From a virus: 64,000 nt of DNA. Position 1 is the first letter of the stretch. Every line of letters starts with the position of its first letter. The position numbers were made by a program, and so were the translations under genes. This document shows positions 1 to 52,364 of this stretch, one piece after another. The stretch lies in the IMG/VR virus record IMGVR_UViG_3300020177_001482, positions 24,898 to 88,897 of that record; one strand, 5' to 3'. The notes under the pieces were generated by a model. It saw nothing but the letters and a program-made list of their open reading frames with translations, was not told the origin of the DNA and made no database searches.

Positions 1-2
1 AG

Positions 3-2639
3 AAGGACGAGGACAAGATATACGTCGTAGAACGTGATCCCAAGAAGGGCAGGATATTCACGGAGTATGATGCCAGGTACGTGTTCTACTATGAGGACGC
101 CAGGGGCAAACACAGATCAATGACCGGTGCACCATTACAGCGGGTGCAGTGTGCCACACACAAAGAATTCATAAAAGAACAGAGGATAAGATCCAACAAG
201 CAACTGTACGAGAATGATATCAATCCTGTGTTCAGGTGTTTGGAAGAGAACTACTTGGGCAAGGAGACGCCCAAACTAAACGTGATGTTTTTCGATATTG
301 AAGTTGACTTCGATCCCGATCGAGGTTATTCAACAACAGATGATCCGTTCATGCCCATAACTGCCATAAGTTGTTACATGAGCTGGACGGACCAACTGGT
401 CACATTCGCAGTACCTCCCAAAACTATCAGCATGGACGATGCCAAAGAACTCACAAAAAGATTTGACAACACAATGCTTTTTGAAAAAGAGAAAGATATG
501 TTGGACGCATTCCTAGAACTAGTGCAGGACGCAGACATACTGTCGGGTTGGAACAGTGAGGGATATGACATTCCATACACAGTGGGTAGGATACAGAAAG
601 TGTTGAGTTCAGACGACACAAGACGTCTTTGTTTTTGGGGTGAAAAGCCAAGAAAGAGAGTGTTCGAGAAGTATGGTAGGGAACAGTTGAGTTTTGACCT
701 AGTGGGACGTGTACACTTGGACTTGTTGGAACTATACAGGAAATACACATACGAGGAAAGACACAGTTTCAGACTAGACGCAATTGGTGAACACGAGTTG
801 GATGAGAGAAAAACTGTCTACGAGGGCTCGCTCGATAACTTGTACAAGAACGACTTTGGATTGTTCATAGAATACAACAGACAGGATACTGCACTGTTGG
901 CCAAACTGGAGAAGAAATTGAAGTTCATAGAACTGGCCAATGAGATAGCACACCAAAACACTGTACTACTACAGACAACGATGGGTGCGGTCGCGGTCAC
1001 AGAACAGGCAATCGTAAATGAAACACACAGACGTGGAATGCAGGTACCGGCCAGGAAGTACAAGAAAGACGGTGAAGAGAACCAACCGGCGGCAGGAGCA
1101 CACGTGGCCACCCCACAAAAGGGAATACACGACTGGATAGGATCTGTTGACATAAACAGTCTGTATCCAAGTGTTATTAGAGCATTGAACATGGGTCCTG
1201 AAACCATAGTTGGACAGATTAGGCCAGTGATTACTTCAGCAGAGATCAACAGGGCCAAACACGCCAAGAAATCATTCGCGGCGGCATGGGACAGCCAGTT
1301 TGGTAGTTGGGAATACCAAGCGGTCATGAACCAAGAGAAGGGCACAGAGATAATTGTTGATTGGGAAGACAAGACCAGTGTGCGTATGAGTGCGGCACAA
1401 CTGTACGAGATAATATTCGATGGCAATAACAAATGGATGCTAAGTGCTAATGGCACAATATTCACATACGAGCACGAAGCAATCATTCCAGGTCTGTTGA
1501 AGCGTTGGTACGCGGAGAGACAGGAAATGCAAAAAAAGATGCGTGAGTGTGGAGACAACGAGATCGAAAGAGAATATTGGGACAAGAGACAACTTGTAAA
1601 GAAAATTAATCTAAACAGTCTGTATGGTGCGATCCTAAATCCAGGCTGTAGATTCTTTGACATAAGAATTGGACAGAGTGTTACACTCACAGGCAGGTGT
1701 ATCACCAAACACATGGCCAGCAAAGTCAACGAGATCGTGGCGGGCAAGTATGACCACAAGGGCGAGAGTGTTGTGTATGGAGACACAGACTCCGTTTACT
1801 TCTCAGCATACAAGACATTACAGAAAGAGATCAATGAAGGTATCATACCGTGGACCAAAGACTCCGTCGTGGCACTGTACGACAGGATTGCAGACGAGGT
1901 CAACGGATCTTTCAAATCATTCATGACTAAAGGCTTCCATTGTCCTAGCACGAGGGGTGAAGTTATAGCGGCGGGCAGAGAACTTGTTGCATCAAAAGGT
2001 CTGTTCATCACAAAGAAAAGGTATGCCGTGCTTTACTATGACAAGGAAGGTAAACGTGCAGATGTTGACGGCAAGGATGGCAAGATGAAGGCCATGGGAC
2101 TGGATCTCAAACGTTCAGACACACCTGTTTTCGTGCAGGATTTCCTGAGTGATCTCCTATACATGGTACTGACAGGGAAAACAGAAGAGCAAGTGCTAGA
2201 AAAAATTAGTGAATTCAGAGCAGAGTTTAAATCTAGGCCAGGGTGGGAGAAAGGTTCTCCCAAGAGGGCAAACAACATGACCAAGTACACTGCGGCCGAG
2301 GAGAAGGCCGGTAGAGCAAACATGCCGGGACACGTGAGGGCCAGCATGAATTGGAACAGGTGCAGGGAAATGTATGGCGACAAGTACAGTATGCCAATCA
2401 CGGATGGTGCCAAAGTGATAGTGTGTAAACTCAAAAACAATCCGTTAGGCTACACGAGTATCGCATATCCGGTGGACGAGATGCGTATTCCTGAATGGTT
2501 CAAGGAACTGCCGTTCGACAGTGATGCCATGGAAGCAACGATACTTGATCAAAAGATAGACAACCTCATAGGAGTCTTGGGTTGGGACGTGCAATCAACT
2601 GAGACCACGAACACATTCAACAAACTGTTTGAATTCTAA
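3..2639 (+). CDS. 43: DNA polymerase, family B (T4 gp43-like), 5' partial
   Basis: Replicative DNA polymerase with 3'-5' proofreading. The frame is open to the left edge (first complete codon at 3), so the start lies outside; the GTG at 81 is not taken as the true start. Exonuclease motifs are visible in order: FFDIEV, SGWNSEGYDIPY and YNRQDTALL. Polymerase motifs follow: DINSLYPS (motif A), KINLNSLYGA (motif B) and YGDTDSVY (motif C with the catalytic Asp pair). The region with KKRYAVLYYD and a C-terminus ending NKLFEF are as expected for the T4 branch. Length to the edge (878 residues) fits a nearly complete gp43 (T4 about 900). A methyltransferase and the putative clamp follow on the same strand. 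Confidence 0.96.
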   Translation, partial: KDEDKIYVVERDPKKGRIFTEYDARYVFYYEDARGKHRSMTGAPLQRVQCATHKEFIKEQRIRSNKQLYENDINPVFRCLEENYLGKETPKLNVMFFDIEVDFDPDRGYSTTDDPFMPITAISCYMSWTDQLVTFAVPPKTISMDDAKELTKRFDNTMLFEKEKDMLDAFLELVQDADILSGWNSEGYDIPYTVGRIQKVLSSDDTRRLCFWGEKPRKRVFEKYGREQLSFDLVGRVHLDLLELYRKYTYEERHSFRLDAIGEHELDERKTVYEGSLDNLYKNDFGLFIEYNRQDTALLAKLEKKLKFIELANEIAHQNTVLLQTTMGAVAVTEQAIVNETHRRGMQVPARKYKKDGEENQPAAGAHVATPQKGIHDWIGSVDINSLYPSVIRALNMGPETIVGQIRPVITSAEINRAKHAKKSFAAAWDSQFGSWEYQAVMNQEKGTEIIVDWEDKTSVRMSAAQLYEIIFDGNNKWMLSANGTIFTYEHEAIIPGLLKRWYAERQEMQKKMRECGDNEIEREYWDKRQLVKKINLNSLYGAILNPGCRFFDIRIGQSVTLTGRCITKHMASKVNEIVAGKYDHKGESVVYGDTDSVYFSAYKTLQKEINEGIIPWTKDSVVALYDRIADEVNGSFKSFMTKGFHCPSTRGEVIAAGRELVASKGLFITKKRYAVLYYDKEGKRADVDGKDGKMKAMGLDLKRSDTPVFVQDFLSDLLYMVLTGKTEEQVLEKISEFRAEFKSRPGWEKGSPKRANNMTKYTAAEEKAGRANMPGHVRASMNWNRCREMYGDKYSMPITDGAKVIVCKLKNNPLGYTSIAYPVDEMRIPEWFKELPFDSDAMEATILDQKIDNLIGVLGWDVQSTETTNTFNKLFEF

Positions 2640-3475: not shown

Positions 3476-4213
3476 ATGATAGACATCTTAAAAGACATCG
3501 TTAAACATACGCATGGACTGGGATTCTTGGATCTTGTTAAGATCACTGGAGACGATAAGGAAACTACAATCGACTCAATGGCCGAAGACAGATCTGTGAT
3601 CCTACAGGGGTCTTTCCACAAGCCACAGACGGAGATGACGGGTACGTTTGGTATGCCACAGATGGGCAAACTGGACATACACTTGAAGTGTCCGGAGTAC
3701 AAGGAGAAGGCGAACATAACTGTGTTGTCCGGTGAGAGAAACGGTGCGACCATTCCCACAGGAATCCATTTCGAGAACGAAAAGGGTGACTTCAAGAATG
3801 ACTACAGATTCATGAACGCTGAGATCATCAACGAGAAACTTAAGACCGTGAAGTTCAAGGGTGTTAAGTGGGACGTGGAGATCGAACCCTCCGTGGCTAG
3901 TGTGCAGAGATTCAACTTCCAGGCAACAGCAAACACCGAACACAACTCCTTTGTTGTGAGGACCGAGGATGGGAACTTGATTTTCACTTTCGGTGATCAG
4001 GCATCACATGGTGGTGAGTTTGTATTCGCAACTGACGTTAAGGGAACACTTAACAAAGGTTGGAGTTGGCCGGTAGGACAGGTGCTACAAATACTTAAAC
4101 TATCAGACTCGGCAAAGGTCACATTACACTTCTCTAACGAGGGTGCGATGCAGGTCTCTGTTGATTCGGGATTGGGCAAGTATCAATACATCATACCAGC
4201 ACAGGCGCAATAA
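3476..4213 (+). CDS. 45: Sliding clamp, gp45-like (putative)
   Basis: A 245-residue, strand-rich protein lying near gp43. The N-terminus begins with an amphipathic helix followed by LGFLDLVKIT. The C-terminal stretch SDSAKVTLHFSNEG followed by LGKYQYIIPAQ resembles the last strands and tail of PCNA/gp45-type clamps. Length is close to T4 gp45 (about 228). The clamp tethers the polymerase, and in T4 it also activates late transcription. Identification rests on overall pattern and position, since clamps carry no catalytic motif. It has its own near-leaderless promoter, and its TAA stop shares one base with the next ATG (TAATG). Confidence 0.72.
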   Translation: MIDILKDIVKHTHGLGFLDLVKITGDDKETTIDSMAEDRSVILQGSFHKPQTEMTGTFGMPQMGKLDIHLKCPEYKEKANITVLSGERNGATIPTGIHFENEKGDFKNDYRFMNAEIINEKLKTVKFKGVKWDVEIEPSVASVQRFNFQATANTEHNSFVVRTEDGNLIFTFGDQASHGGEFVFATDVKGTLNKGWSWPVGQVLQILKLSDSAKVTLHFSNEGAMQVSVDSGLGKYQYIIPAQAQ

Positions 4214-5661
4214 TGACGACAGATAATAGTAAGCAGGAACACCTAGGGGAGTTAAGCAGAGACTTCGCTGTGTTCTTGCCTGCTATATCTAACTTCTACA
4301 ACACGTTTATCAGCAAACAGAGAGTTTCAGAAGGCAAACACATCTCAGAAGACAGGATTCCAAAAGGCTTTGAGAATGGTGTTGAAGGACTAAACTTTAT
4401 CAATCCAAAAGAAGGAATGTTCACTTACCCCACAGCACTGTACTCGGCGGGACATGCCTGCTTGGACATGGAAAAGGTTGGCGACAGAGATCATATGTTC
4501 GTGAACAGAGATAGAGAATTTTCTACTATAGTAGGCGACTCAGGTGGATACCAGATAGGTAAAGGTGTAATAAAATTTGATTGGAAGGACTTCGAGGGTA
4601 ACAAGGCAAACAAAGTTAGATCTGACATACTAAACTGGCTAGAGCTCACAAGCGATTGGGCCATGACACTTGACGTACCAACCTGGGCGGCAGATGATTT
4701 AAACAGCCCAAAAACAGGATTGAACAGTTTCCAGGACACGCTGGACGGTACCATATACAACAACAAGTTCTTCCAGAAGAACAGGCTAGGACAAACAAAA
4801 CTATTGAACGTGTTACAGGGAGATGACTGGAACACAGCACAGATATGGTATGATGCTGTCAAAGATTTTGAATTCGAAGGATGGGCCATGGGTGGTATCA
4901 ACATGTGTGACATGGAAGTCATGCTCAAACGTCTAATCATAATGAGAGATGAGAAGAAACTGGACGGCAAAGATTGGATGCACGTACTAGGTACGTCACA
5001 GATGGATTGGGGTTGTTATCTTACACAGGTACAGAGACAGGTTAGGAAACACATAAACCCGAACTTCACAATAAGTTTTGACAGTGCATCAGCATTCTTA
5101 TCAACTGCTAATGGACTTGTATATACACACAACTCATTCACTCCAGACAGGTGGTCGTTCGTGATGGACAAGGCACCGGATGATAAAACACTGAAAGGAT
5201 CCGATATACAGTTTCCGTTTGACAGTGGCATTGGACGTAGATTGAAAATGAAAGATGTATGTTGGTATGGCGAGCAGGACGTTAACAAGAATGGTAAAAT
5301 TGGTGCTACAAGTTGGGACAGTTTCAGTTATGTATTAATGATGGCCCATAACGTGTACAATCAGATCAGGGCAATACAGATTGCAAACGACTTGAATGAC
5401 ATAGAATCAAGGAAATACAGACCAGAAGTAAAACACTGGAGAAAAACAAAAGCAAGTGACAAGACAGACGAACCAAGCATATACGTTCCGAGGAACATAC
5501 TGTACTTCAACACTTTAGTGGAAGAGGTGTTTACTAGTGAGAAACCTATGGAAGTAATTGCAAACGCATCAAGTTATCTAGCAGACATCAGGGGCAACAG
5601 ATGGGCCAGAGCAACAGGCGGTGGTAAAGGTACGAACAATTTCAGTTCTTTATTTGAATAG
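4213..5661 (+). CDS. tRNA-guanine transglycosylase-like (DpdA-type) base-exchange enzyme
   Basis: A 482-residue TIM-barrel-type protein with the ordered signatures of the TGT superfamily: VGDSGGYQIG (substrate-binding DSGG[FY]Q), MTLDVPTWA, LLNVLQGDDW (equivalent of the VQGG region), GWAMGGI, MHVLGTSQMDW (equivalent of HYLMGVG) and ISFDSASAF, where the Asp corresponds to the catalytic nucleophile. TGT exchanges guanine for preQ1 or preQ0 in tRNA; the related DpdA does so in DNA. The CxCxxC zinc motif of bacterial TGT is absent, which fits a divergent, phage-type DpdA. FolE, QueD-like, QueE and YhhQ-type genes in the same window support a DNA 7-deazaguanine role. The DNA target is inferred, not shown. 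Confidence 0.75.
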   Translation: MTTDNSKQEHLGELSRDFAVFLPAISNFYNTFISKQRVSEGKHISEDRIPKGFENGVEGLNFINPKEGMFTYPTALYSAGHACLDMEKVGDRDHMFVNRDREFSTIVGDSGGYQIGKGVIKFDWKDFEGNKANKVRSDILNWLELTSDWAMTLDVPTWAADDLNSPKTGLNSFQDTLDGTIYNNKFFQKNRLGQTKLLNVLQGDDWNTAQIWYDAVKDFEFEGWAMGGINMCDMEVMLKRLIIMRDEKKLDGKDWMHVLGTSQMDWGCYLTQVQRQVRKHINPNFTISFDSASAFLSTANGLVYTHNSFTPDRWSFVMDKAPDDKTLKGSDIQFPFDSGIGRRLKMKDVCWYGEQDVNKNGKIGATSWDSFSYVLMMAHNVYNQIRAIQIANDLNDIESRKYRPEVKHWRKTKASDKTDEPSIYVPRNILYFNTLVEEVFTSEKPMEVIANASSYLADIRGNRWARATGGGKGTNNFSSLFE

Positions 5662-6434: not shown

Positions 6435-6603
6435 GTACAGAGAAGGTCTAGCCAGTTACAATGCCTGGATCAAAGACAATAAGAAATTAGAAAAGATGGG
6501 TATGTATGGTGCCGATCATTTTGTTAAAAGAGTAGAAGAACTAGAAGCACAAGTTGAATTATTACAAGACATGTTAGAAAAGGAAAGGAAACGAAACAAA
6601 TGA
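6415..6603 (+). CDS. Small coiled-coil hypothetical protein
   Basis: A 62-residue charged protein. Its C-terminal half, from VKRVEELEAQVELLQDMLEK onward, is a clear heptad coiled coil. The ATG at 6415 is chosen over the GTG at 6412 because GAGGAG lies 4 bases upstream. It overlaps the end of the previous gene by 20 bases, and the next ATG overlaps its TGA. Confidence 0.65.
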   Translation: MPKKQSKYREGLASYNAWIKDNKKLEKMGMYGADHFVKRVEELEAQVELLQDMLEKERKRNK

Positions 6604-7025
6604 GCACTGAAGACATGAGAGATCAAGCTCTGAAAGAGCAGGCCAACAAGGGCACCAAGATGATATGGGTCACTTTCAGAAAGGAAGGCATCCACAAGTA
6701 TCCAGCGGCACTGGACGATCCCAAACTGGCGACAGGTGACGAGTATGATGTGAGTTTCCTGGGACATCCACACAGGCACATATTCCATTTCAAGGTCGCC
6801 ATAGAAGTGTTCCACGATGACAGAGACATAGAATTCATACAGTTCAAGAGATGGATGGAGAACATGTACGCGGACGGTACGATGAAATTAGACTACAAGA
6901 GTTGTGAGATGATATCAGATGATCTATACATAGCCATAACGAAAAGATATCCAGGTAGAAAGATTGAAATAGACGTGGCGGAGGACGGTGAGAATGGCTC
7001 ACACGCAGTATATGAAAGAGATTAA
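6600..7025 (+). CDS. queD: QueD / 6-pyruvoyl-tetrahydropterin synthase-like protein
   Basis: A 141-residue T-fold candidate. GHPHRHIFHFKVAIEV resembles the zinc-binding HGH strand of QueD. RDIEFIQFKRWM matches the helix after the DF-like turn, SCEMISDDL corresponds to the PTAENLA position, and IDVAEDGENG occupies the place of the conserved V.V.ET strand. QueD converts dihydroneopterin triphosphate to carboxy-tetrahydropterin, the second step to preQ0. The ligand spacing differs from bacterial QueD, so activity is uncertain. FolE (step 1) and QueE (step 3) are encoded within 10 kb. Confidence 0.55.
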   Translation: MSTEDMRDQALKEQANKGTKMIWVTFRKEGIHKYPAALDDPKLATGDEYDVSFLGHPHRHIFHFKVAIEVFHDDRDIEFIQFKRWMENMYADGTMKLDYKSCEMISDDLYIAITKRYPGRKIEIDVAEDGENGSHAVYERD

Positions 7026-7332
7026 ATTCAAAGAGAAAAGAGCAACATCAAGGATGGGATACCTACCCATAGAAGGTGGTGGCTTGAACGCTTCATACAC
7101 GACAGTGGACGCAGTGGCGAATATATGCACGACTGCGGGCAATCTGGGAATGAAGTATGGCAAGGATTTCATCTGGTCAGGCACAGACTGGGATGACAAT
7201 GACGACGACTGTATCACTCTGATGGTGAAGGAAGACAAGTACGAATCTTTCCTACATCTTGCCCTGCAGAATGACCACAGGATAAAACACACAGACAAGG
7301 GCGAAATCAAACTGATCAAGGAGAGAAAATAA
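6994..7332 (+). CDS. Hypothetical protein
   Basis: A 112-residue protein of unknown function. The centre has SYTTVDAVANICTTAGNLGM and an acidic run WDDNDDDC. The ATG at 6994 is preferred (GGAGG 9 bases upstream); a GTG at 6988 is also in frame. It overlaps the QueD-like gene by 32 bases and ends one base into the rubrerythrin ATG, so the genes are probably co-translated. Confidence 0.6.
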   Translation: MAHTQYMKEIKFKEKRATSRMGYLPIEGGGLNASYTTVDAVANICTTAGNLGMKYGKDFIWSGTDWDDNDDDCITLMVKEDKYESFLHLALQNDHRIKHTDKGEIKLIKERK

Positions 7333-7754
7333 TGGACTTAAAAGAAAGTAAAACAGCAGAGAACCTCAAAGACGCTTTCGCAGGTGAAAGCCAAGCAAAC
7401 AGAAGATACCTTTACTTCGCTCAGAAGGCGGACATCGAGGGAGCACCAGATGTGGCGGCGGTATTCAGATCGACTGCGGAAGGTGAAACGGGACACGCAC
7501 ACGGACACCTAGAGTACCTGGAAGAAGTTGGAGATCCAGCGACAGGTGAGAAGATGGGTGAAACAGAGGACAACCTCAAGAGTGCTATCGCAGGTGAGAC
7601 ACACGAGTACACAGACATGTACCCAGGCATGGCGAGAACAGCCAGGGACGAAGGATTCGATGAGATCGCTGACTGGTTCGAGACACTTGCAAAAGCAGAG
7701 AAATCACACGCAGGCAAGTTCCAGAGAACACTGGACGCATACAAGGGAGCATAA
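7332..7754 (+). CDS. Rubrerythrin-like diiron protein
   Basis: A 140-residue ferritin-like protein. The four-helix diiron site is complete: [10 protein letters not shown] supplies Glu19, GETGH supplies Glu52 and His55 (ExxH), AGETHEY supplies Glu89, and AEKSH supplies Glu123 and His126 (second ExxH). The C-terminal rubredoxin domain with two CxxC knuckles of classic rubrerythrin is missing, giving the short erythrin form. Such proteins reduce peroxide or store iron. AAGGAG precedes the ATG. The TAATG junction with the peroxiredoxin gene indicates coupled expression of two peroxide-removing enzymes. Confidence 0.88.
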
Positions 7755-8290
7755 TGAGAGTACCATACACTAACTTCAAGACAAGGATAGGTGACAACGA
7801 CGCAGTGGGTGGTTGCACTTTCATAGGCGGTGAATGGAAAGAAGTTGATACTGCGGAAATATTTGACGATAAAAAAGTTGTTGTGTTCGCCCTTCCGGGG
7901 GCGTTCACACCCACTTGCAGTTCCCAACAACTACCAGGATACGAAGAGAAGTATGATGAGCTGAAAGCACTTGGTGTTGACGAAGTTTATTGCTTGTCTG
8001 TAAATGACGCATTCGTAATGAATGCTTGGTTCAGAGACGAGAAGATAGAGAAGGTGAAACCGATCGGTGACGGAGAAGGTGTGTTCACACAGGGCATGGG
8101 CATGTTGATCAACAAACCAAAACAGGGTTTTGGAATGAGATCATGGAGATATTCAATGCTGGTAGACAACGGAGAGGTTGTGAAAACATTCGTCGAAGAA
8201 GGTAAGAACAACGCTAGTGAAGACAATGATCCTTTCGAAGTATCTGACGTTGACACAATGATCAAACACTTGAAGGAAAATGCCGGGTAG
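7754..8290 (+). CDS. Peroxiredoxin, Prx5 type
   Basis: A 178-residue thioredoxin-fold peroxidase. The active-site segment [16 protein letters not shown] carries the peroxidatic Cys55 with the conserved Pro and Thr. The continuation [19 protein letters not shown] is typical of the Prx5 subfamily, and length matches a full domain. It reduces hydroperoxides using host thiols. The start overlaps the rubrerythrin stop. In a phage this pair would protect the infected cell or the phage's oxygen-sensitive Fe-S enzymes; the latter link is inference. Confidence 0.92.
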
Positions 8291-8474
8291 TTGGGACGGC
8301 AAGTCAAGACCGTCAAACTCCAAATACAGGGAGAACTATAACGATATCTTTAAGAAGAAGGAAACTTGTCCTTGCGGCAGGTCACCAATTGGTAGATGTG
8401 TTGGATGGCATGGATTGACAGAAAGCGAATATCAAGTTAAACTAGCAGAATGGAAAGAAAAACATGCTGATTAG
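8280..8474 (+). CDS. Small Cys-containing hypothetical protein
   Basis: A 64-residue hydrophilic protein. A compact Cys/His cluster, TCPCGRSPIGRCVGWHG, could bind one metal ion. The family is not recognised. It overlaps the peroxiredoxin gene by 11 bases and the next gene by 11 bases. Confidence 0.6.
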   Translation: MPGSWDGKSRPSNSKYRENYNDIFKKKETCPCGRSPIGRCVGWHGLTESEYQVKLAEWKEKHAD

Positions 8475-8772
8475 AATGATATTTGAACCGGAAGCCAATG
8501 TGAACTGTAATCACGACAGGATGTTCGAATACTACAGTGAGAACTATCTGAGTGACTTTGACACCAACTGGGGTGGCACAATAGTCATGGACAACTTCTC
8601 GAAGAAACACTATAGGCAAGAACCTTGTTACCAGAGGTACATAGAAAATTCCAAAGGCGATCAAGAAACTCTAAATAAGATCATGGAATACGTCACACAG
8701 AATCCAATGGCAGGATACACAACACACATATACGCAAACCCACAAGGGGGAAATGAGGTCAAACAATTATGA
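8464..8772 (+). CDS. Hypothetical protein
   Basis: A 102-residue soluble protein with a near-central aromatic stretch (FEYYSENYLSDFDTNWGG). No known domain or membrane segment is visible. It ends 4 bases into the glycosyltransferase gene (ATGA overlap). Confidence 0.6.
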   Translation: MLIRMIFEPEANVNCNHDRMFEYYSENYLSDFDTNWGGTIVMDNFSKKHYRQEPCYQRYIENSKGDQETLNKIMEYVTQNPMAGYTTHIYANPQGGNEVKQL

Positions 8773-9938
8773 AGATATTTTACATGGGCCTAGAGCCCTA
8801 CGAAGGCAGATACACACTACAGTTACAGGACTGGACAGAGAGGGCATACAACAAAAGAGGAATTGATTACGTTGTGGTACCAGGCACAACCATAGATGAC
8901 ACAAAAGCGATCAGTGTGGGACAGGTGCTTGATGCACACGGCAGAAGTTACTTTGGCATGAGCCAGATGATGAATCTGGTACAGATGATGAGGAACGGTG
9001 AGGTGACGAACAAGGATGTGATATTCTTCGAGGACATGTTCCAACCAGGCATGGAATCACTGCCTTACATCTTACACCAAGTAGATGAGAAACACAGACC
9101 AACGATATATCTGAGATGCTTGGCACAGGCCATAGATCCCGACGACTTCGTACACGTGTGGGGCATGAGCAAGTGGATGAGCATGTACGAACAGATGTGT
9201 AATGAAATTCCCAACGTAAAAATACTAGCGACCAATGAAGAGATGGTGGCACACATGAGAATAGCAAACTGGTCGGCACCCATATACAACATATCAGGAT
9301 TGAGCTTTGGCAAGGAAGAGGTACAAGGCAGAGTACCAGACAGGAAACCTTTCATTGAAAGGAAACAGAGAGTGATTTTTGGAGCGAGATGGGATCAAGA
9401 GAAACAGCCACAGTTCTACATGACGCTGGCATTGAAATACAAAGAGAAACACCCAGACGTTGAATTCGCGATATGTCAAGGTGGTCCATTGAGATCGAAC
9501 AATCAATTCTTTGTGGACGAGGCCAAGTATCTTGCGAAACAAGGCACAATCACAATACACGAGAACTTGAAGAAGAACGAGTACTACGAACTACTCGCAG
9601 ACTCAAGGGTGATGTTCAACTGTGCTTTACAGGACTGGGTGTCAAACACAGTCAGTGAAGCAGACGCAATGGGTTGCAACACACTGTTTCCGGCATACAG
9701 GTCATTCCCGGAGACTTTCGCAAATGACCACACCAGAATGTATGTTCCATGGTCGATGGAAGACGCAATGAACAAACTAGATGTATTATTAAGCAAACCA
9801 TCCCCTAGTATAGGTAAATTATCTGATTGGACCAACGGTACCATAGACAGGATGATAGACATTATGACAGGCAAGGGTGAACAATGGAGAAGAGATGGAC
9901 AACACTACAGAAACGCAGTATCAGAATCCAAATATTAA
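8769..9938 (+). CDS. Glycosyltransferase, GT-B fold-like
   Basis: A 389-residue protein. The C-terminal half looks like the nucleotide-sugar-binding domain of GT-B enzymes: RVIFGARWDQEKQPQ opens the domain, a strand ends in FAICQGG, ITIHENLKKNEYYELLADS marks the usual helix, and NTVSEADAMGCNTLFPAYRSFPE corresponds to the EA[LM]xxG donor-binding motif. It may transfer a hexose to DNA, a virion protein or a surface glycan. GalE directly downstream, overlapping by 44 bases, suggests a galactose or glucose donor. The acceptor is unknown. Confidence 0.72.
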   Translation: MKIFYMGLEPYEGRYTLQLQDWTERAYNKRGIDYVVVPGTTIDDTKAISVGQVLDAHGRSYFGMSQMMNLVQMMRNGEVTNKDVIFFEDMFQPGMESLPYILHQVDEKHRPTIYLRCLAQAIDPDDFVHVWGMSKWMSMYEQMCNEIPNVKILATNEEMVAHMRIANWSAPIYNISGLSFGKEEVQGRVPDRKPFIERKQRVIFGARWDQEKQPQFYMTLALKYKEKHPDVEFAICQGGPLRSNNQFFVDEAKYLAKQGTITIHENLKKNEYYELLADSRVMFNCALQDWVSNTVSEADAMGCNTLFPAYRSFPETFANDHTRMYVPWSMEDAMNKLDVLLSKPSPSIGKLSDWTNGTIDRMIDIMTGKGEQWRRDGQHYRNAVSESKY

Positions 9939-10926
9939 AGGTTCCAGCAAGGCCGTACTGGTCACAGGCGGAGCAGGCTATGTGGGTTCACACACCTGCA
10001 AACTGTTGGTCAAGAACGGATACACACCAATCACAGTGGACAGACACTACAGAGAAGGGTTGAAATCATTTGGACCAAACTACAATTTAAATCTCCCACA
10101 GGAGATAGACAGGATTGACGAGATAATCAACAGGTACAACATAACCAGTTGTATACATTTCGCAGGTAGCACCAGTGTGCCTGAGAGCGTTGCCAATCCA
10201 TCTTTGTATTACAAAAATAATTTAATCACGACTATATCGTTGTTAGACAAACTTATCGAGTGTGATGTTAAGACATTCGTTTACAGTTCCAGTGCGGCCA
10301 CATACGGTGATCCCGGAATGCAGTTGGCCATGGAGACAGACGTCGCCAATCCGATCAGTGCATACGGTGGTAGCAAACTGATGATAGAGATGGTGTGTCG
10401 AGATTACTTGAGGGCATACGGTTTGAGCAGTGTAGGTCTGAGATACTTCAATGCCGCTGGTGCAGATCCAGAAGGTGAGATTGGAGAACTAAGGGAAAAA
10501 GAAACACACATCATACCACTGGCCATAGAGGCCGCCAAGCAAGGCAAGACGTTCAAGATATTTGGTGACAAGTATCCAACAGATGACGGAACATGTGTGA
10601 GGGATTATGTGCATGTGATGGACCTAGCGGACGCACACATAAAAGCATTGAATCACGCTTCAGAGAACCCAGTAGCAGATGTGTTCAACTTGGGTTCGGG
10701 AGAACCTGCTTCCAACAAGCAGTTGGTAGAGGCAGTGCAGAAACACGCAGGTGAAATGATAGTGGAGATGCATGACAACAGGCCTGGAGATCCCGCATAC
10801 CTAGTGGCGGACACCAGCAAGGTAAAGGAAATTTTAAAGTGGGAACCTACACAGAGCAGTCTTGACAATGTGGTGGCAACTGCTGTACAATGGTATAACA
10901 AGACACACAAGAAGGAAATACAATAA
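9895..10926 (+). CDS. galE: UDP-glucose 4-epimerase-like (GalE), extended SDR
   Basis: A 343-residue NAD-dependent epimerase. The Rossmann motif TGGAGYVGSH lies near residue 24. The Ser of YSSSAATYG and the YGGSK (YxxxK) catalytic pair are present, as are the family-typical GLRYFNAAGADP, RDYVHVMDLADAH and FNLGSG. It interconverts UDP-glucose and UDP-galactose or the N-acetyl forms. The ATG at 9895 is preferred because GGAGAAGAG lies just upstream; a GTG at 9877 would also be in frame. It shares one base with the FolE start. Confidence 0.92.
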   Translation: MDNTTETQYQNPNIKGSSKAVLVTGGAGYVGSHTCKLLVKNGYTPITVDRHYREGLKSFGPNYNLNLPQEIDRIDEIINRYNITSCIHFAGSTSVPESVANPSLYYKNNLITTISLLDKLIECDVKTFVYSSSAATYGDPGMQLAMETDVANPISAYGGSKLMIEMVCRDYLRAYGLSSVGLRYFNAAGADPEGEIGELREKETHIIPLAIEAAKQGKTFKIFGDKYPTDDGTCVRDYVHVMDLADAHIKALNHASENPVADVFNLGSGEPASNKQLVEAVQKHAGEMIVEMHDNRPGDPAYLVADTSKVKEILKWEPTQSSLDNVVATAVQWYNKTHKKEIQ

Positions 10927-11639
10927 TGAGTGAAGATATTTTAAAGGACAGTTGGATGCCTGAGACACCCGTAAGCAAAAAGATCAAGGAAAGAATCAAG
11001 AAGGCAGGCAAGAGATTCCACTCCAATGACAATATCGCTGAATTCATAGAAGACGGCGAGATGGAGTTATTACAGGAAGAAGTGCAAGAAAAATTACAAG
11101 GTGTGCTGGACAGTCTTGTTATTGACACAGAGAACGATCACAACACGAACGAGACTGCCAAACGTGTGGCCAAGATGTACATCAGAGAAACATTCGGTGG
11201 TAGATTCAAACCAGCACCGAGAGTGACGAGTTTCCCCAACATGGGTTACAAGAGCATGTACACTAGTGGTCCAATATCGATCAGATCAACGTGTGCCCAT
11301 CACTTCCAGAACATAGTTGGCAAGGCGTGGGTTGGCATCATCCCAAATGGTGAAGTTATTGGATTGAGCAAGTTCAATAGGATCGTACATCACATCGTGG
11401 AGAGACCGCAGATACAGGAAGAGATGACGACACAGATCGCAGATGAATTGAAAAAATATGCCAAGACCGAGAATCTTGCAGTGGTAGTCAAAGCAGAACA
11501 TCACTGCATGACGCACAGGGGTGTCAGGGAACACGAATCAGACATGACCACAGCGATCATGCTGGGAGCATTCAAAGATGATCCTGCAACAAGAGATGAG
11601 TTTTACAAAATCTGTATGAGCATGAAGGGCCATGGCTAA
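10926..11639 (+). CDS. folE: GTP cyclohydrolase I
   Basis: A 237-residue enzyme converting GTP to dihydroneopterin triphosphate, the entry step to 7-deazaguanines and folate. The zinc site is intact: Cys123 and His126 in STCAHHF, and Cys194 in EHHCMTHRG. LSKFNRIVHHIVERPQIQEE is the conserved tunnel helix. The first 55 residues are a charged extension. With QueD-like and QueE genes in the same strand block, the preQ0 route is a likelier role than folate. Confidence 0.95.
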   Translation: MSEDILKDSWMPETPVSKKIKERIKKAGKRFHSNDNIAEFIEDGEMELLQEEVQEKLQGVLDSLVIDTENDHNTNETAKRVAKMYIRETFGGRFKPAPRVTSFPNMGYKSMYTSGPISIRSTCAHHFQNIVGKAWVGIIPNGEVIGLSKFNRIVHHIVERPQIQEEMTTQIADELKKYAKTENLAVVVKAEHHCMTHRGVREHESDMTTAIMLGAFKDDPATRDEFYKICMSMKGHG

Positions 11640-11988
11640 GAAAAGCAAAGCACAAATCAAAAAAGAACAGGCCAACATGCAGTCAGACAACATAGAGATG
11701 GGTGCAATGAGTTCAGACGGAATACAGAACACTGGAGATTTCACATACTCCTTCGCAGACCTAGACGACGATCTAGGTATGACTACGAACACAGGTGGGG
11801 TTGTTAAGACAGCGACAGTCGATACTGTAGACTCAGGATTTTCATTCAATTACAACGACGTAGGACTTGACGTGTTTGACGAGATGGAACTGCAAGACAA
11901 GTACCCAGCTCTGAAACAGGCCCACGAACACTATAAAAGTGTTCTCGAAATTTGCAAGACAAAAGAAAAGGAAGAAAATGAGGATTGA
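11632..11988 (+). CDS. Hypothetical acidic phage protein
   Basis: A 118-residue protein with a basic N-terminus (KKSKAQIKKEQ) and an acidic middle (FADLDDDLGM). It is predicted soluble. I do not recognise the family. It overlaps FolE by 8 bases and the GMP reductase start by 11 bases. Confidence 0.6.
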   Translation: MAKKSKAQIKKEQANMQSDNIEMGAMSSDGIQNTGDFTYSFADLDDDLGMTTNTGGVVKTATVDTVDSGFSFNYNDVGLDVFDEMELQDKYPALKQAHEHYKSVLEICKTKEKEENED

Positions 11989-13027
11989 TAACGAACCAAA
12001 ATTGAACTTCGAGGATGTATTACTGAAACCAAAGCGTTCTACATTGAGTTCACGTAGAGATGTGGACATGACACGTAAGTTCACTTTCAGGAATTCAGGC
12101 AAGGTTATGGACTTCCTGCCAATATTCGCCAGCAACATGGACGGTGTCGGCACGTTCTCTATGGCAAAGCAAATGCAGAATCACAAGATGATGACCGTGA
12201 TCACTAAATCAACCACTCCAGAACAATGGAAAGAGGCCGCTGGCACAGGACTGAGAATGCAGTCAGTTTCGGTCTGTACAGGAACTAATGTCATGTGGGA
12301 TCCTGAAGCACAGGACTACAAGAACATGCAACAGGTATTAGAGATGTTTCCGGATGTCAAAATGATCACCATTGATGTTGCGAATGCTTATCACCAAAAC
12401 TTCGTAGATTTTATAAGGAGAGTCCGAGACGAATATCCAGACAAAGTAATAATAGCAGGAAATGTTGTGACGCCCGAGATGGTGGAGGAGTTGATAATAA
12501 ACGGTGCTGATGTAGTCAAGATAGGCATAGGACCGGGTTCGGTATGTACTACAAGGACCATGACCGGAGTTGGTGTGCCACAGTTCTCAGCCATAGTTGA
12601 ATGTTCAGACGCCGCAAACGGTGTTGGTGGACACATAATGGCGGATGGTGGTTGCGTTTATCCAGGCGATATTGCAAAAGCATTTGGTGGCGGAGCACAC
12701 ATGGTCATGATAGGTGGCATGCTGGCAGGACATGACGAATCAGAACAACCTGTGGTTGACGGCAGAGTAGAATTCTACGGAATGAGCTCAGACAGAGCGA
12801 GAGAAGTACACGGAAAACGCAAAGACGGATACAGAGGTAACGAGGGTAGACTCATATCCTTGCCACACAGAGGACCTGTTGGACCAACATTAGAAGACAT
12901 ACTGGGTGGAGTCAGGAGTGCCTGCACATACATAGGTGCAAGGAGATTGAAAGACATGGCCAAGTGTGCCAGTTTTGTAACAACCAACAACGTGATCAAC
13001 AGGGTTTATGAACAATACACCAAATAA
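11978..13027 (+). CDS. guaC: GMP reductase
   Basis: A 349-residue TIM-barrel enzyme that converts GMP to IMP with NADPH. The start LNFEDVLLKPKRSTL and the catalytic-loop Cys in KIGIGPGSVCTTRTMTG are typical, as are MADGGCVYPGDIAKAFGGG and LGGVRSACTYIGA. The absence of CBS domains favours GuaC over IMP dehydrogenase. The ATG at 11978 aligns with the usual N-terminus, and the upstream in-frame GTG at 11939 is rejected. Phage GuaC could shift host GMP towards adenine nucleotides. A phosphoribosyltransferase lies nearby. Confidence 0.93.
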   Translation: MRIDNEPKLNFEDVLLKPKRSTLSSRRDVDMTRKFTFRNSGKVMDFLPIFASNMDGVGTFSMAKQMQNHKMMTVITKSTTPEQWKEAAGTGLRMQSVSVCTGTNVMWDPEAQDYKNMQQVLEMFPDVKMITIDVANAYHQNFVDFIRRVRDEYPDKVIIAGNVVTPEMVEELIINGADVVKIGIGPGSVCTTRTMTGVGVPQFSAIVECSDAANGVGGHIMADGGCVYPGDIAKAFGGGAHMVMIGGMLAGHDESEQPVVDGRVEFYGMSSDRAREVHGKRKDGYRGNEGRLISLPHRGPVGPTLEDILGGVRSACTYIGARRLKDMAKCASFVTTNNVINRVYEQYTK

Positions 13028-13340
13028 CATAGAACCAATCAAAGAGAAACTGGACGACAAGATTAAGAAGTTGAATTCTTCTCGGGTCATAAAGAAAGTG
13101 ACACCCAAGGGAGATCTTTCTTGGTACGTGAAATGGGTCTCGGTGTTCTTTATATTGGTAGCGACGGCGGCCAGGAGTGTTGGCACCATCCCACACATAG
13201 ACATGTGGTTCGGATTAGTGGGCACCGTAGGATGGGCATGGGTTGGATACCTTTGGCATGACCGGGCACTGTTGTTCCTTAACGCAATACTAGTCACACT
13301 ATTGATAATAGGACTAATGAATTACTACTTTGGAATATGA
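13008..13340 (+). CDS. Small membrane protein (three predicted TM segments)
   Basis: A 110-residue protein. A charged N-terminus of about 38 residues precedes three hydrophobic segments, roughly residues 42-58, 66-84 and 87-108. The family is uncertain; the WYVKWVSVFF start of the membrane region is distinctive. It overlaps the GMP reductase by 20 bases and the phosphoribosyltransferase by 4 bases. Confidence 0.65.
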   Translation: MNNTPNNIEPIKEKLDDKIKKLNSSRVIKKVTPKGDLSWYVKWVSVFFILVATAARSVGTIPHIDMWFGLVGTVGWAWVGYLWHDRALLFLNAILVTLLIIGLMNYYFGI

Positions 13341-13801
13341 GCGAGGAAGTCAAAAAGAGTTACTTCACCACAGGACAGATGCGTAACGCACTGATCCAGA
13401 TCGAGGACAAGATGGTACACTCAAACTGGATGCCCAACATCATACTTGGGATCAACAGGGGTGGTTGCATACCAGGAGTATATCTCTCACACAGATTGAA
13501 AACTGCACACGAAGTTCTGGATATAAGATTGAGGGATCACACTACCAAACCTGACCTACGCACATTAGAAAAAGCATTCGCTTTCCAAAAGAAAATACTG
13601 ATCATAGACGACATTAACGATTCAGGGGCAACTTTCCAATACATACTAGACAACTTTGGCAAACGTGAGGACAGGATAAGATTCGCCGCACTGATCAACA
13701 ACAAGCCTAGCAAAGTCAAAGTAGATTACCACGGTTACGAGATCAACAAGGACGAAGTGCCCGCTTGGATCGTGTTCCCATGGGAAGACTGGGACAAGTA
13801 G
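13337..13801 (+). CDS. Purine-type phosphoribosyltransferase
   Basis: A 154-residue PRTase-fold protein. The PRPP-binding loop is KILIIDDINDSGATF near residue 95, with the two acidic residues and the Gly-Ala-Thr of the family. GINRGGCIPGVYLSHRL matches the PPi-loop region, and WIVFPWEDWDK is typical of xanthine/hypoxanthine-guanine PRTases. It salvages a purine base to its nucleotide. With GMP reductase and a YhhQ-type transporter adjacent, it may handle guanine released by base exchange, which is inference. The base specificity cannot be read from the sequence. Confidence 0.8.
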   Translation: MSEEVKKSYFTTGQMRNALIQIEDKMVHSNWMPNIILGINRGGCIPGVYLSHRLKTAHEVLDIRLRDHTTKPDLRTLEKAFAFQKKILIIDDINDSGATFQYILDNFGKREDRIRFAALINNKPSKVKVDYHGYEINKDEVPAWIVFPWEDWDK

Positions 13802-13876: not shown

Positions 13877-14485
13877 ATGTTCAAAAACGTAGACAAATCA
13901 ATGCTGATGAAATTGGTGTTACTGCACGTTGTGGTGATCACTGTTTCAAATGCGTTAGTGGCTATCCCAGTAGAGATACTTGGAGTCAAACTGACGTGGG
14001 CGGCATTCACATTCCCATTGGTCGTTATAGCCACTGACTTGACTGTAAGACTATTGGGCAAACACATAGCCAGAGCCACAATCGCGGCGGCGTATCCATT
14101 AGCAATAATCGGATCCATCGCAGTAGTGTTGGCGGAAGGCGCACCACAATCGGTTGCTTTAAGGATTGGTTTCGCAAGTGCCACTGCTTATGCTATCGGT
14201 ACGTTACTTGACGTGTACGTATTCCAGTACATCAGGGAATCGAAGACATACGGCAAGAACTGGTGGATGGCACCAGCGGTATCAACTATCGCGGCCAACA
14301 TAATCGACACTTACACATTCTTCGCAGTTGCATTCAACAACAGCGCCGATGAATACATGGCGGCGAACTGGGTTGAGATCGCGGGATCGCAGGTGGTGTT
14401 GAAAATCATAGTGGGACTAGTTGTGTTCTTACCAGCATACGGATTATTGCTGAACAGACTACAGAAGACCTACAAACTCAAATAA
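13877..14485 (+). CDS. yhhQ: Queuosine precursor transporter, YhhQ/QPTR family
   Basis: A 202-residue integral membrane protein with about six TM helices. Typical YhhQ features are FPLVVIATDLTVRLLGK near the second helix and a C-terminal half with MAPAVSTIAANIIDTYTFF. The family imports preQ0 or preQ1 into the cell. In a phage it would supply deazaguanine from outside and bypass the missing QueC step. It has its own promoter and ribosome binding site and is followed by a GC-rich hairpin, so it may be a single-gene transcription unit. Confidence 0.88.
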   Translation: MFKNVDKSMLMKLVLLHVVVITVSNALVAIPVEILGVKLTWAAFTFPLVVIATDLTVRLLGKHIARATIAAAYPLAIIGSIAVVLAEGAPQSVALRIGFASATAYAIGTLLDVYVFQYIRESKTYGKNWWMAPAVSTIAANIIDTYTFFAVAFNNSADEYMAANWVEIAGSQVVLKIIVGLVVFLPAYGLLLNRLQKTYKLK

Positions 14486-14568: not shown

Positions 14569-14964
14569 ATGACAAACAAAGCAGGAAAAATCTGGGGCGA
14601 AACAGAACTCATATTAGCAAACAACTCATTGGAATTCCACAGGATCGATTACAAGAAGGGCGGGGTATGTAGCAAACACCTGCACGAATGGAAGTGGAAT
14701 GGATTCTATGTGATGAGCGGACAGATGAAGATCAGGGTGTGGCAGAAAGACTACGACCTCGTAGATGAGACAATATTGAATCCAGGAGACTTCACTGCTG
14801 TGAAGCCAGGACTGTATCACAGTTTTGAAGGTCTAGAAGACGGCGTGGCATTTGAACTGTACTGGGCCAATTTCTCGGTTCATGACATCCAGAGGGAATC
14901 TGTTGGACATCTCAAGGATGTTGACGGTAAAGTTGTCAGACTAGACAAGAACAAGAAGAAATAG
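14569..14964 (+). CDS. Cupin-fold protein
   Basis: A 131-residue single cupin. Motif 1 is GGVCSKHLHEWKWNGFYVMSG and includes the HxH metal ligands and Glu; motif 2 is PGDFTAVKPGLYHSFEGL with the last His. It resembles the mannose-6-phosphate isomerase-like or cupin_2 group. The reaction is unknown; a sugar or small-metabolite role is possible. The next small gene starts on the last base of its stop codon. Confidence 0.8.
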   Translation: MTNKAGKIWGETELILANNSLEFHRIDYKKGGVCSKHLHEWKWNGFYVMSGQMKIRVWQKDYDLVDETILNPGDFTAVKPGLYHSFEGLEDGVAFELYWANFSVHDIQRESVGHLKDVDGKVVRLDKNKKK

Positions 14965-15113
14965 TGGCTGGTAATATTTCTCCTGACAATAAATGGAAAA
15001 TAATAATAGAAGACAACAAGGTCGTCTGGATTGAGTTGACTGAAGACAAAGACCAGTATAAAATAGAAGAACTAGTTGAAGCAACAAAAAAGATATTACC
15101 AGAGATATGGTAG
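14964..15113 (+). CDS. Small hypothetical protein (49 aa)
   Basis: A short frame starting at GTG 14964, whose G is the last base of the cupin stop codon. It ends at TAG inside the QueE start region (a 7-base overlap). It reads as a small acidic two-strand plus helix protein containing WKIIIEDNKVVWIEL. The tight fit between two real genes and normal codon use support it. Confidence 0.6.
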   Translation: MAGNISPDNKWKIIIEDNKVVWIELTEDKDQYKIEELVEATKKILPEIW

Positions 15114-16006
15114 ACGAAAAGAAATATTACTATTCAGAGATATTCCATAGCATTCAAGGCGAGGGACACTACACAGGCGTTCCAACCGCTTGGATAAGAT
15201 TCTTCCTTTGCAACTTGCAGTGTAGTGGGTTTGGACAGGAGGATCCAACAGATCCAAGCACATATGAATTGCCATTCGAAGACTTTGATGTTGATAGTGT
15301 AAAAAAAGTTGAAGACTTACCCGTATGGGAAAAAGGCTGTGACAGTTCTTATACATGGGCAAAGAAGTTCAAGAAACTGATGGGCCACGAAACGCCTACG
15401 GTACTAGCAGATAAAATCGTGGACATATTAAAGACAGACACAAACCAAAATGGATTGTTCCTACATCCAAACTCTAGACAACATCAACACTTGTGTTTCA
15501 CAGGTGGAGAACCTTTAATGATCACAGGACAGGCGGCGAGCATGGGCATATACAGAGAACTTGAAAGACAGGCCAACCTGCCGAGTTCTATGACGTTCGA
15601 GACCAACGGCACACAGAAACTTACAGAGCCATTCAAACAATGGGTAAAGGACATTCCAGAAGAGATATTCTTCAGTGTGAGTCCCAAACTGTTCACTGTA
15701 TCAGGTGAGAAGACAGCAAAAGCGATCAAGCCTGAAAATGTAAAAGAGTATGCAGAGTGTAGCAACAGAGGACAACTTAAATTTGTCGTGGGTGCAAGTA
15801 GAAGAGAGTGGGAAGAACTCGAAAACACAGTAAAAAAATTCAGAGAAGCAGGCATAGATTGGCCAGTATGGATAATGCCCGTGGGAGCAAGGGAAGAGGA
15901 ACAGACAGCGGGTGCAGGCAAGGTGGCAGAAGAGGCATTCAAGAGAGGATACAATGTATCTGCGAGAGTACATGTGTATCTGTTTGGTAATGCAATTGGC
16001 ACATAA
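15107..16006 (+). CDS. queE: 7-carboxy-7-deazaguanine synthase (QueE), insertion-bearing
   Basis: A 299-residue radical SAM enzyme making CDG from carboxy-tetrahydropterin. The N-terminal SIQGEGHYTGVPTAWIRF is the QueE signature. Cys35 and Cys39 (CNLQC) are followed by the third cluster Cys only at 78 (GCDSSYTW), because about 38 residues are inserted where two are usual. CFTGGEPLM, FETNGTQ and FFSVSPKL are the later QueE motifs. It supplies the deazaguanine core for the TGT-like enzyme. QueC, which would make preQ0, is not found in the window. Confidence 0.92.
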   Translation: MVDEKKYYYSEIFHSIQGEGHYTGVPTAWIRFFLCNLQCSGFGQEDPTDPSTYELPFEDFDVDSVKKVEDLPVWEKGCDSSYTWAKKFKKLMGHETPTVLADKIVDILKTDTNQNGLFLHPNSRQHQHLCFTGGEPLMITGQAASMGIYRELERQANLPSSMTFETNGTQKLTEPFKQWVKDIPEEIFFSVSPKLFTVSGEKTAKAIKPENVKEYAECSNRGQLKFVVGASRREWEELENTVKKFREAGIDWPVWIMPVGAREEEQTAGAGKVAEEAFKRGYNVSARVHVYLFGNAIGT

Positions 16007-32152: not shown

Positions 32153-32946
32153 TATCTGTCTCCTATCAGTTTGTTAAAAGTTGGTAACATTAATTTTACA
32201 GCATCTTGGTGTGCCTCGTCAAGTGGATGTGTGGTGCCACGTGGATAGTCATTCAAAAGTGCCCATTGATTGAAACCCATCATCCTCTCTCCAAAACTAT
32301 ACCATTTGGTAAAATCAATCTCACCATGCAATGCCTTCATTAAAGGATCCTGGTCTTTGTGTTGTTTCAATTCGTCATAAAACAAGGTATTGTCTGCCAG
32401 TGTGAACATGTATGGTATTTGTTTCTTCTCCAGAATATTCTGCAACCAGATTATGCTCTTCCAACTGAGGTAGGTCTCATGGTACGGGTTGGCCGCATAT
32501 TTGTATATGGCCTCGGCAAAAGGTTTTACCCCAGATTCTAGCATGTTGTTTTGTCTGGTTTTCCATTGCTCCTGCTGTGTCTCTGATCCCTGTATAGTCC
32601 TGAATGCTTCCTCGTTTCCCCTTGTCGTGTCCCATGGTGAGATACTTGTCCACCTTGTGTCCTCTAACATTCCATTCATGGGCATGGCCCAATCATAACG
32701 TGAGAGAAAACTCCACATGACCAGCACACAATCAACGTCTCTGTTCTGTGACACCGCCTTGAATGTCCTACGAGCTATAGCACTGTTGCCTGCTCCACCA
32801 GACGCAGTGCATATGTAGTCATCGTGTGTTGCTTCTGTGAGCCTGTAGGCCCATGCCTTCTTGGATGGTGTCTTGCCGCCCACATCATCCGAGAGTTCAT
32901 TCCCTAGCGTGAAACTGCAACCTCCTATAATTACTTTCTTACTCAT
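32152..32946 (-). CDS. SGNH-hydrolase-like protein
   Basis: A 264-residue protein. IIGGCSFTLGNEL is an SGNH block I with the nucleophile Ser, and CTASGGAGNSAIARR holds the Gly and Asn blocks. DCVLVMWSFLSRYDW begins the third block, and a late THPLDEAHQDA supplies a candidate His. SGNH enzymes are esterases or O-acetyl-processing enzymes. It directly precedes (in transcription it follows) a radical SAM gene, with an 8-base overlap. Confidence 0.7.
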   Translation of the reverse strand: MSKKVIIGGCSFTLGNELSDDVGGKTPSKKAWAYRLTEATHDDYICTASGGAGNSAIARRTFKAVSQNRDVDCVLVMWSFLSRYDWAMPMNGMLEDTRWTSISPWDTTRGNEEAFRTIQGSETQQEQWKTRQNNMLESGVKPFAEAIYKYAANPYHETYLSWKSIIWLQNILEKKQIPYMFTLADNTLFYDELKQHKDQDPLMKALHGEIDFTKWYSFGERMMGFNQWALLNDYPRGTTHPLDEAHQDAVKLMLPTFNKLIGDR

Positions 32947-52356: not shown

Positions 52357-52364
52357 TATTTATT
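52357..52364 (-). promoter_or_regulatory. late-promoter-like box AATAAATA
   Basis: On the - strand, TAAATA starts on the TAA stop of the giant gene and ends 6 bases before the ATG at 52350. It matches the T4 late box TATAAATA at seven of eight positions. Confidence 0.45.

Follow-up and report, generated by a model that had tools for sequence, protein, structure and literature searches.

Insertion of 7-deazaguanine bases into phage DNA is attributed to DpdA proteins: according to PMC6884629, DpdA1 of Enterobacteria phage 9g carries out such an insertion, the DNA of Vibrio phage nt-1, which encodes a DpdA2, contains dPreQ0, and Hutinet et al. (2019) give, in the same text, 48 phages with preQ0-pathway genes for which no DpdA is listed. 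Here, a gene of a marine T4-like phage (IMG/VR record IMGVR_UViG_3300020177_001482; 88,897 bases) was examined, the product of which, referred to as DGT, has the fold of a tRNA-guanine transglycosylase (TGT) and is predicted to be a DNA-guanine transglycosylase. The analysis was centred on a stretch of 64,000 nucleotides (positions 24,898 to 88,897 of the record), called the window, and coordinates within it are collected in Table 1. The model that is favoured, with a probability of roughly 0.6, places DGT in a new DpdA-like family of DNA-guanine transglycosylases, with the enzyme tethered to the sliding clamp and the base it inserts probably glycosylated. The family is thus a candidate for the missing inserter in phages such as Vibrio phage 2.275.O and the PA5oct group.

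A TGT relative in a clade of its own

No family was named for DGT by Pfam, PHROGs, NCBIfam or PADLOC. The TGT profile PF01702 had no match at E 10 in the phage's own record, despite being positive in 14 of 14 control genomes, and no match in four phage records, and searches of PDB sequences with the DGT protein or with family alignment A1 retrieved no TGT. Comparison of profiles with hhalign, on the other hand, paired the DGT family with 15 bacterial and archaeal TGTs at E 4.6e-11 and with six DpdA2 sequences at E 4.7e-11, whereas reversed TGT reached 0.14, reversed DpdA2 0.32 and an unrelated TIM barrel 0.35; given the value of 4.6e-11 beside decoys at 0.14 and 0.35, the likeness to TGT is beyond chance. 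The AlphaFold2 model, for which 47 family rows were supplied, has a mean predicted local distance difference test score (pLDDT) of 90.8 and a predicted template modelling score of 0.90, and TGT accounts for all 50 of the listed Foldseek matches in the PDB (best E 2.8e-8). Comparison of the model with T. maritima TGT by VIA gave Z 19.7 over 308 residues (root mean square deviation 4.6), and the DpdA2 of nt-1 was found at rank 8 in a viral structure library.

The initial annotation, made from the DNA letters, had described DSGGYQ, LQG, GGI and FDSA signatures ordered as in TGT together with a missing CxCxxC zinc cluster, and both descriptions hold. DSGGYQ is followed in TGT order by LDVP (residues 153-156), LQG (201-203), GWAMGGIN (223-230), HVLG (257-260), FDSAS and HN (379-380). 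Invariant in the 47-sequence alignment are five residues of DSGGYQ (Table 1), D154, N183, G223, H257 and D290, with Q202 kept in 46 of the 47 rows. D109 aligns with the acid/base residue of TGT, and D290 with the nucleophile Asp of TGT; by analogy with TGT, DSGGYQ would provide both the general acid/base Asp and the base-binding motif. DGT itself has no CxCxxC, and of 197 family loci 194 lack it too; the other three (L199, L201 and L202) are distant Bacteroidota or archaeal relatives. What is left of the zinc site is the histidine of 'HN', which 46 of 47 rows retain, together with a cysteine that 26 of 47 have at position 350; hhalign places H379 of DGT on 'TIHNL' of E. coli TGT, the histidine of which is presumably a zinc ligand. 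The archaeal relatives L202 and L201 score 48.2 and 22.5 bits with PF01702, bridging the DGT family to TGT, and since these two retain CxCxxC the cluster was probably lost in the DGT family. The locus of L202, a Candidatus Nitrosotalea contig in which the relative with CxCxxC (7872-9176) has QueE, FolE and a polymerase homologue close by, is possibly a provirus. Loss of CxCxxC was considered as the mark of a new subtype and rejected, because DpdA2 lacks the motif too (0 of 6 sequences, against 12 of 15 TGT sequences, some of which are fragments).

In a tree of 57 listed rows, some having been thinned out beforehand and long branches being flagged by the program, the DGT family (38 rows), TGT (10) and DpdA2 (7) separate with support of 100/100, 100/95 and 100/100, respectively. 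DGT is therefore a TGT relative that forms its own clade apart from tRNA-type TGT and from DpdA2. A grouping with tRNA-type TGT, which would have spoken against the initial annotation, is thus not seen. A profile from the 47-sequence alignment, run against 11 whole phage records, had DpdA2 as its sole match in five of six DpdA2 phages (E 3.6e-7 to 6.7e-11), missed the DpdA2 of BUCT-ZZ01 and found nothing in 9g or CP220; in the reverse direction PHROG 10773 did not match DGT at 0.01 and reached E 0.13 for the Vibrio phage 2.275.O homologue. Two further subfamilies, DpdA3 and DpdA4, were reportedly named by Cui et al. in 2023, and membership of DGT in one of these, unmatched by name, is considered improbable. 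The search for them went by name, which leaves room for such a match; set against it are the lack of any hit of the DGT profile in CP220, which we take to be a DpdA3 phage, and the annotation of DGT relatives in named phages as hypothetical proteins. The proposal of a new DpdA subtype thus stands in so far as the clade is separate and the neighbouring genes make 7-deazaguanine, and falls in so far as it leaned on CxCxxC. Homology and context together give good support to a new DpdA-like family that would act on DNA; the word subtype is to be read as a prediction.

The C-terminal tail and the choice between DNA and tRNA

The C-terminus had also been described as unlike that of TGT, and it proves to be polymerase-like: the tail of the phage's family B DNA polymerase, NTFNKLFEF, mirrors NNFSSLFE of DGT, FxxLFE being common to both. 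Within the last 12 residues the strict motif F..[LIM]F[ED] occurs in polymerase and DGT alone among the 112 predicted open reading frames (ORFs) of the whole 88.9-kb record, which was scanned as three overlapping stretches, such that the polymerase appears twice. With the same limit of 12 residues the motif is present in 67 of 72 members of the window's clade, 67 of 141 complete phage DGT homologues and 118 of 155 polymerases, compared with 3 of 2,339 control ORFs of phage loci. When the last 100 residues were considered it was found in PA5oct, L158, L163, one of four members of the L126 clade and some of the L116 clade, with 9 of 1,455 controls positive. A relaxed motif, which 480 of 1610 control ORFs match, was discarded for that reason. 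For Vibrio phage 2.275.O, inspection by eye gave NNNDLFGW as the end of the DGT homologue and NNTDLFDW as that of the polymerase. The sliding clamp of T4 is bound by similar C-termini of gp43, gp55 and gp33, which can replace one another, according to PMC2988020 and PMC3012046, and by analogy the DGT tail probably binds the clamp also, tethering the enzyme to the replication machinery. Such a tail would be a possible way to aim a DNA-exchange enzyme at newly made DNA.

The gene immediately upstream of DGT (Table 1) encodes a 245-residue protein that is suspected, from its position and by eye, to be the sliding clamp itself. Phosso has a 240-residue gene in the same place, with 18% identity in the alignment, which is outside the 152 loci counted.

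The polymerase-like tail, together with FolE, QueE and YhhQ encoded downstream, points to DNA rather than tRNA as the substrate. Insertion of 7-deazaguanine into host or phage tRNA would agree with the fold and catalytic residues of DGT, which are those of TGT, and with a suggestion, in PMC6884629, that some phages with preQ0 genes and no DpdA raise queuosine (Q) in host tRNA. Nevertheless, a tRNA enzyme appears quite improbable: the DGT profile is as close to DpdA2 of nt-1, a phage with modified DNA, as it is to TGT; the tail is of polymerase type and the gene lies beside the polymerase; the zinc cluster of TGT is lost; and canonical TGT (PF01702) is also present in 14 of 14 genomes searched that have a DGT relative, including 12 of 12 from proteobacteria.

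A linked glycosyltransferase, QueC and the identity of the base

A glycosyltransferase gene and the absence of QueC, neither of which had been brought up in the initial annotation, bear on the fate of the inserted base. Pfam scores of the glycosyltransferase are weak and below cut-off, and its model (pLDDT 83.9) shows the GT-B/GT4 fold over the full length, the highest Z being 26.0. R207, K212 and E297, which correspond to the GT4 donor site, are invariant in 30 sequences. The gene is found in 65 of the 67 phage DGT loci with enough flanking sequence; it is absent nearby in Phosso and Vibrio phage 2.275.O, and in Phosso it lies in a FolE/QueE cluster approximately 170 kb from the DGT homologue. 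All 16 named phage records with the glycosyltransferase encode either the DGT family or DpdA2, these being the same 11 Pseudomonas records and one Sinorhizobium record that have DGT, and four with DpdA2 (BUCT-ZZ01, ACP17 twice, and X1); for this comparison 60 of 70 DpdA2 records were listed, including BUCT-ZZ01, X1 and one ACP17, and the second ACP17 was taken from the organism count. In PA5oct the glycosyltransferase gene is immediately next to DGT and in ACP17 and X1 to DpdA2, and in BUCT-ZZ01 it lies near DpdA2. Viewed from the glycosyltransferase side, among the best 80 of 248 viral loci DGT lies 1.5 to 6 kb upstream in 74, and of the remaining six one has DpdA2 and five are missing the upstream sequence. 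Six of 39 bacterial or archaeal DGT loci have the glycosyltransferase, and these are also the six with a YhhQ-like gene.

From this linkage, the glycosyltransferase probably acts on the base inserted by DGT. The linkage could instead reflect operon sharing only, with DGT a DNA transglycosylase and the glycosyltransferase acting on a pterin made by FolE and the small T-fold protein, or on another DNA base. Tetrahydrobiopterin glucosyltransferases are among the solved relatives of the glycosyltransferase model, and FolE and a PTPS-like protein are encoded in the same run of genes; bacterial loci, however, pair DGT with the glycosyltransferase and YhhQ with no FolE or QueE in the stretch examined, and in ACP17 and X1 the glycosyltransferase adjoins DpdA2, so that an acceptor elsewhere appears unlikely. 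Among the matches listed, a literature search returned nothing on glycosylated 7-deazaguanine in phage DNA, nothing linking transglycosylase, glycosyltransferase and QueE, and nothing on PA5oct with deazaguanine. To our knowledge, no such hypermodification of DNA is on record.

QueC (PF06508) was found in none of 12 viral records of the DGT family, namely the phage's own record and 11 relatives, in part of which the presence of the glycosyltransferase was checked. QueC was sought also in 12 hand-chosen named phages (phage records with QueE number 173): it is above cut-off in none of the five with the glycosyltransferase (BUCT-ZZ01, ACP17, PA5oct, Phosso and X1, the last with one weak match of 16.2 bits), and is present in all seven without (Vibrio phage 2.275.O, pf16, Moby, KVP40, nt-1, CP220 and 9g), an exclusion with a Fisher value of 0.0013 for these chosen phages, uncorrected for kinship. 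Since no QueC was found, the phage's own pathway stops before preQ0, and the base in glycosyltransferase-bearing phages is probably 7-carboxy-7-deazaguanine (CDG) or a product of it. Cui et al. are said to have reported, in 2023, dCDG, dDG and a CDG decarboxylase, DpdL, and a literature search on DpdL and related names gave nothing on point among the matches listed. At a guess, the small T-fold protein encoded near DGT is DpdL, in which case the sugar would need another acceptor.

Gene neighbourhood, proposed mechanism and comparison with known systems

Table 1. Features of the window, with coordinates in nucleotides of the window.
Feature	Coordinates	Strand	Evidence or remarks
Family B DNA polymerase (gp43-like)	1..2639	+	PHROG 262, Pfam DNA_pol_B; 5' end just before window
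245-residue protein upstream of DGT	3476..4213	+	In 152/153 phage loci; stop overlaps ATG start of DGT (TAATG)
TGT-fold enzyme (DGT), predicted DNA-guanine transglycosylase	4213..5661	+	Intact ORF, 482 residues
DSGGYQ, residues 109-114	4537..4554	+	D109, S110, G111, G112 and Q114 invariant in 47 rows
FDSAS, residues 289-293	5077..5091	+	D290 in 47/47; paired by hhalign with E. coli FDCV
Disordered C-terminal tail, residues 465-482, ending NNFSSLFE; predicted sliding-clamp-binding peptide	5605..5658	+	pLDDT < 50
Small QueD/PTPS-like (T-fold) protein	6600..7025	+	hhalign to QueD E 5.2e-6, reversed 0.55
GT4-type glycosyltransferase, partner gene	8769..9938	+	GT-B fold model, linkage to DGT
Nucleotide-sugar epimerase	9895..10926	+	Pfam Epimerase 7e-51; overlaps 3' end of glycosyltransferase gene
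FolE, GTP cyclohydrolase I	10926..11639	+	ATG overlaps epimerase stop (TAATG)
GMP reductase	11939..13027	+	NCBIfam NF003470, 454 bits, above cut-off
Purine phosphoribosyltransferase	13337..13801	+	Library matches
YhhQ/QPTR-family 7-deazaguanine transporter	13877..14485	+	TIGR00697, 109 bits, above cut-off
Cupin-like protein	14569..14964	+	Library matches
QueE, 7-carboxy-7-deazaguanine synthase	15107..16006	+	phrog_2076 7.6e-55

Of the 67 phage loci in which the sequence continues for 9.5 kb or more downstream of DGT, 64 encode the small T-fold protein, 56 FolE, 36 QueE and 26 YhhQ. The T-fold protein was found in 26 named phage records; phiST, Ahp1, RHph_I1_18 and D479 have it without the glycosyltransferase (loci L325:9016-9363, L323:8995-9387, L324:8971-9348 and L326:8989-9363). 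Canonical QueD is not found in the phage's own record, and PF01242 was found in 6 of 12 viral records. The epimerase may start at GTG 9877, the first in frame, or at ATG 9895, and the purine phosphoribosyltransferase could salvage guanine released by DGT. By eye, the QueE of the window reads CxxxCxGFG where radical SAM proteins usually have CxxxCxxC, the next Cys comes after a long insert, and some related phage QueE proteins resemble it. The minus strand encodes several consecutive radical SAM-like proteins (32939-40135), of which three are weak matches to the QueE profile. In the genome of Vibrio phage 2.275.O, where PF01702 and the DGT profile found no other TGT relative, the DGT homologue is near QueF, YhhQ, a QueC gene and FolE; the gene that follows it, beside QueF (L084:13705-14817), scores 21.9 bits against an amidoligase cut-off of 22 and perhaps serves a different decoration of the base. 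Elsewhere in the window, a gene that by eye is rubrerythrin-like precedes a peroxiredoxin, making a redox pair (7332-8290), and a 3,845-residue ORF on the minus strand (52360-63897) probably encodes a giant structural protein.

DGT relatives were found in 13 of 50,697 named phage records, all annotated 'hypothetical protein'. The PA5oct group accounts for 11 of them, at 41% identity, and the others are Sinorhizobium phage Phosso, at 30%, and Vibrio phage 2.275.O, at 27%. The original placing in T4-like phages is thus correct for the T4-like members and too narrow for the family, which extends to these jumbo phages and to proteobacterial loci. Relatives were found in 108 viral contigs in a single-protein scan and in at least 593 in a scan with alignment A1; the best 80 were kept from each, some loci being in both, and as these are the closest relatives the kept loci under-sample the diversity. 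A single scan of genome contigs yielded 41 relatives, most of them from Alpha- and Betaproteobacteria; two are archaeal and one is from Bacteroidota. Bacterial homologues often lie beside small tyrosine integrases (a family present in 14 of 37 family clusters; for example L167:5691-7376, L169:6365-7924 and L173:5250-7937), and also beside one of two large gene families (13 and 8 of the 37 clusters), which suggests that these loci are small mobile islands.

In the proposed mechanism, CDG would be made by the phage's FolE and QueE together with QueD, which is seen in relatives. DGT, held at the replication clamp through its C-terminal peptide, would remove guanine from new DNA, D290 acting as the nucleophile and D109 as the acid/base residue, and would put in its place either CDG or what the small T-fold protein produces. 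The GT4-type enzyme would then probably glycosylate the inserted base, with the sugar coming by way of the neighbouring epimerase, and the glycosylated DNA may be hidden from host nucleases. In its widest form, the proposal is that T4-like phages and jumbo phages have glycosylated 7-deazaguanine installed in their DNA by a replisome-tethered DGT and a dedicated GT4 enzyme, through a CDG branch without QueC, and that bacterial loci hold a reduced version (DGT, glycosyltransferase and YhhQ-like transporter), in some cases beside integrases; this is put forward tentatively and is less probable than the model for DGT given at the outset.

Several observations weigh against the favoured model. With regard to the tail, the strict motif is found in just 24 of 60 members of the L116 clade even within the last 100 residues, in none of 37 bacterial or archaeal members, and in neither Phosso nor Vibrio phage 2.275.O, and the 245-residue protein has no clamp match in Pfam, hhalign or a PDB profile search, such that gp45/PCNA identity is unconfirmed. 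With regard to glycosylation, 33 of 39 bacterial or archaeal DGT loci have neither the glycosyltransferase nor YhhQ, the small T-fold protein occurs also in phages without the glycosyltransferase, and the modelled GT4 fold, with tetrahydrobiopterin glucosyltransferases among its relatives, says little about the acceptor. As to the base, YhhQ imports preQ0 and preQ1, which fits poorly with a CDG route lacking QueC, and QueC could be supplied by the host. Finally, because the phages are related, the counts are not independent.

Of the described systems, DpdA2 (phrog_10773; Vibrio phage nt-1 YP_008125322) shares with DGT a TGT-type core without CxCxxC, a place in phage 7-deazaguanine gene neighbourhoods, detection by the DGT profile and, in ACP17, X1 and BUCT-ZZ01, the same glycosyltransferase nearby. 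It differs in lacking BLASTP similarity to DGT and in forming a separate clade (100/100), and the polymerase-like tail is a feature of many phage DGT members. DpdA1, for which the function now proposed for DGT is described in PMC6884629, showed no profile match, in a comparison with the single 9g sequence. Bacterial, eukaryotic and archaeal TGTs have in common with DGT the fold, the catalytic Asp pair, DSGG(F/Y)Q, QG, GG, FD and the HN of the zinc site, whereas CxCxxC is lost in DGT, PF01702 does not find it and it falls in its own clade. The partner glycosyltransferase resembles the GT4 enzymes MshA, PimA, BshA and SenB over the full length of the GT-B fold, but differs from them in its sub-threshold Pfam scores. 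The glucosylated hydroxymethylcytosine (hmC) of T4 resembles the proposed model in that a modified base in DNA then receives a sugar; hmC is incorporated by the polymerase, whereas the 7-deazaguanine would be inserted by exchange. If the glycosyltransferase does act on the inserted base, phages would have evolved a sugar-coated purine along a path that parallels the glucosylated cytosine of T4.

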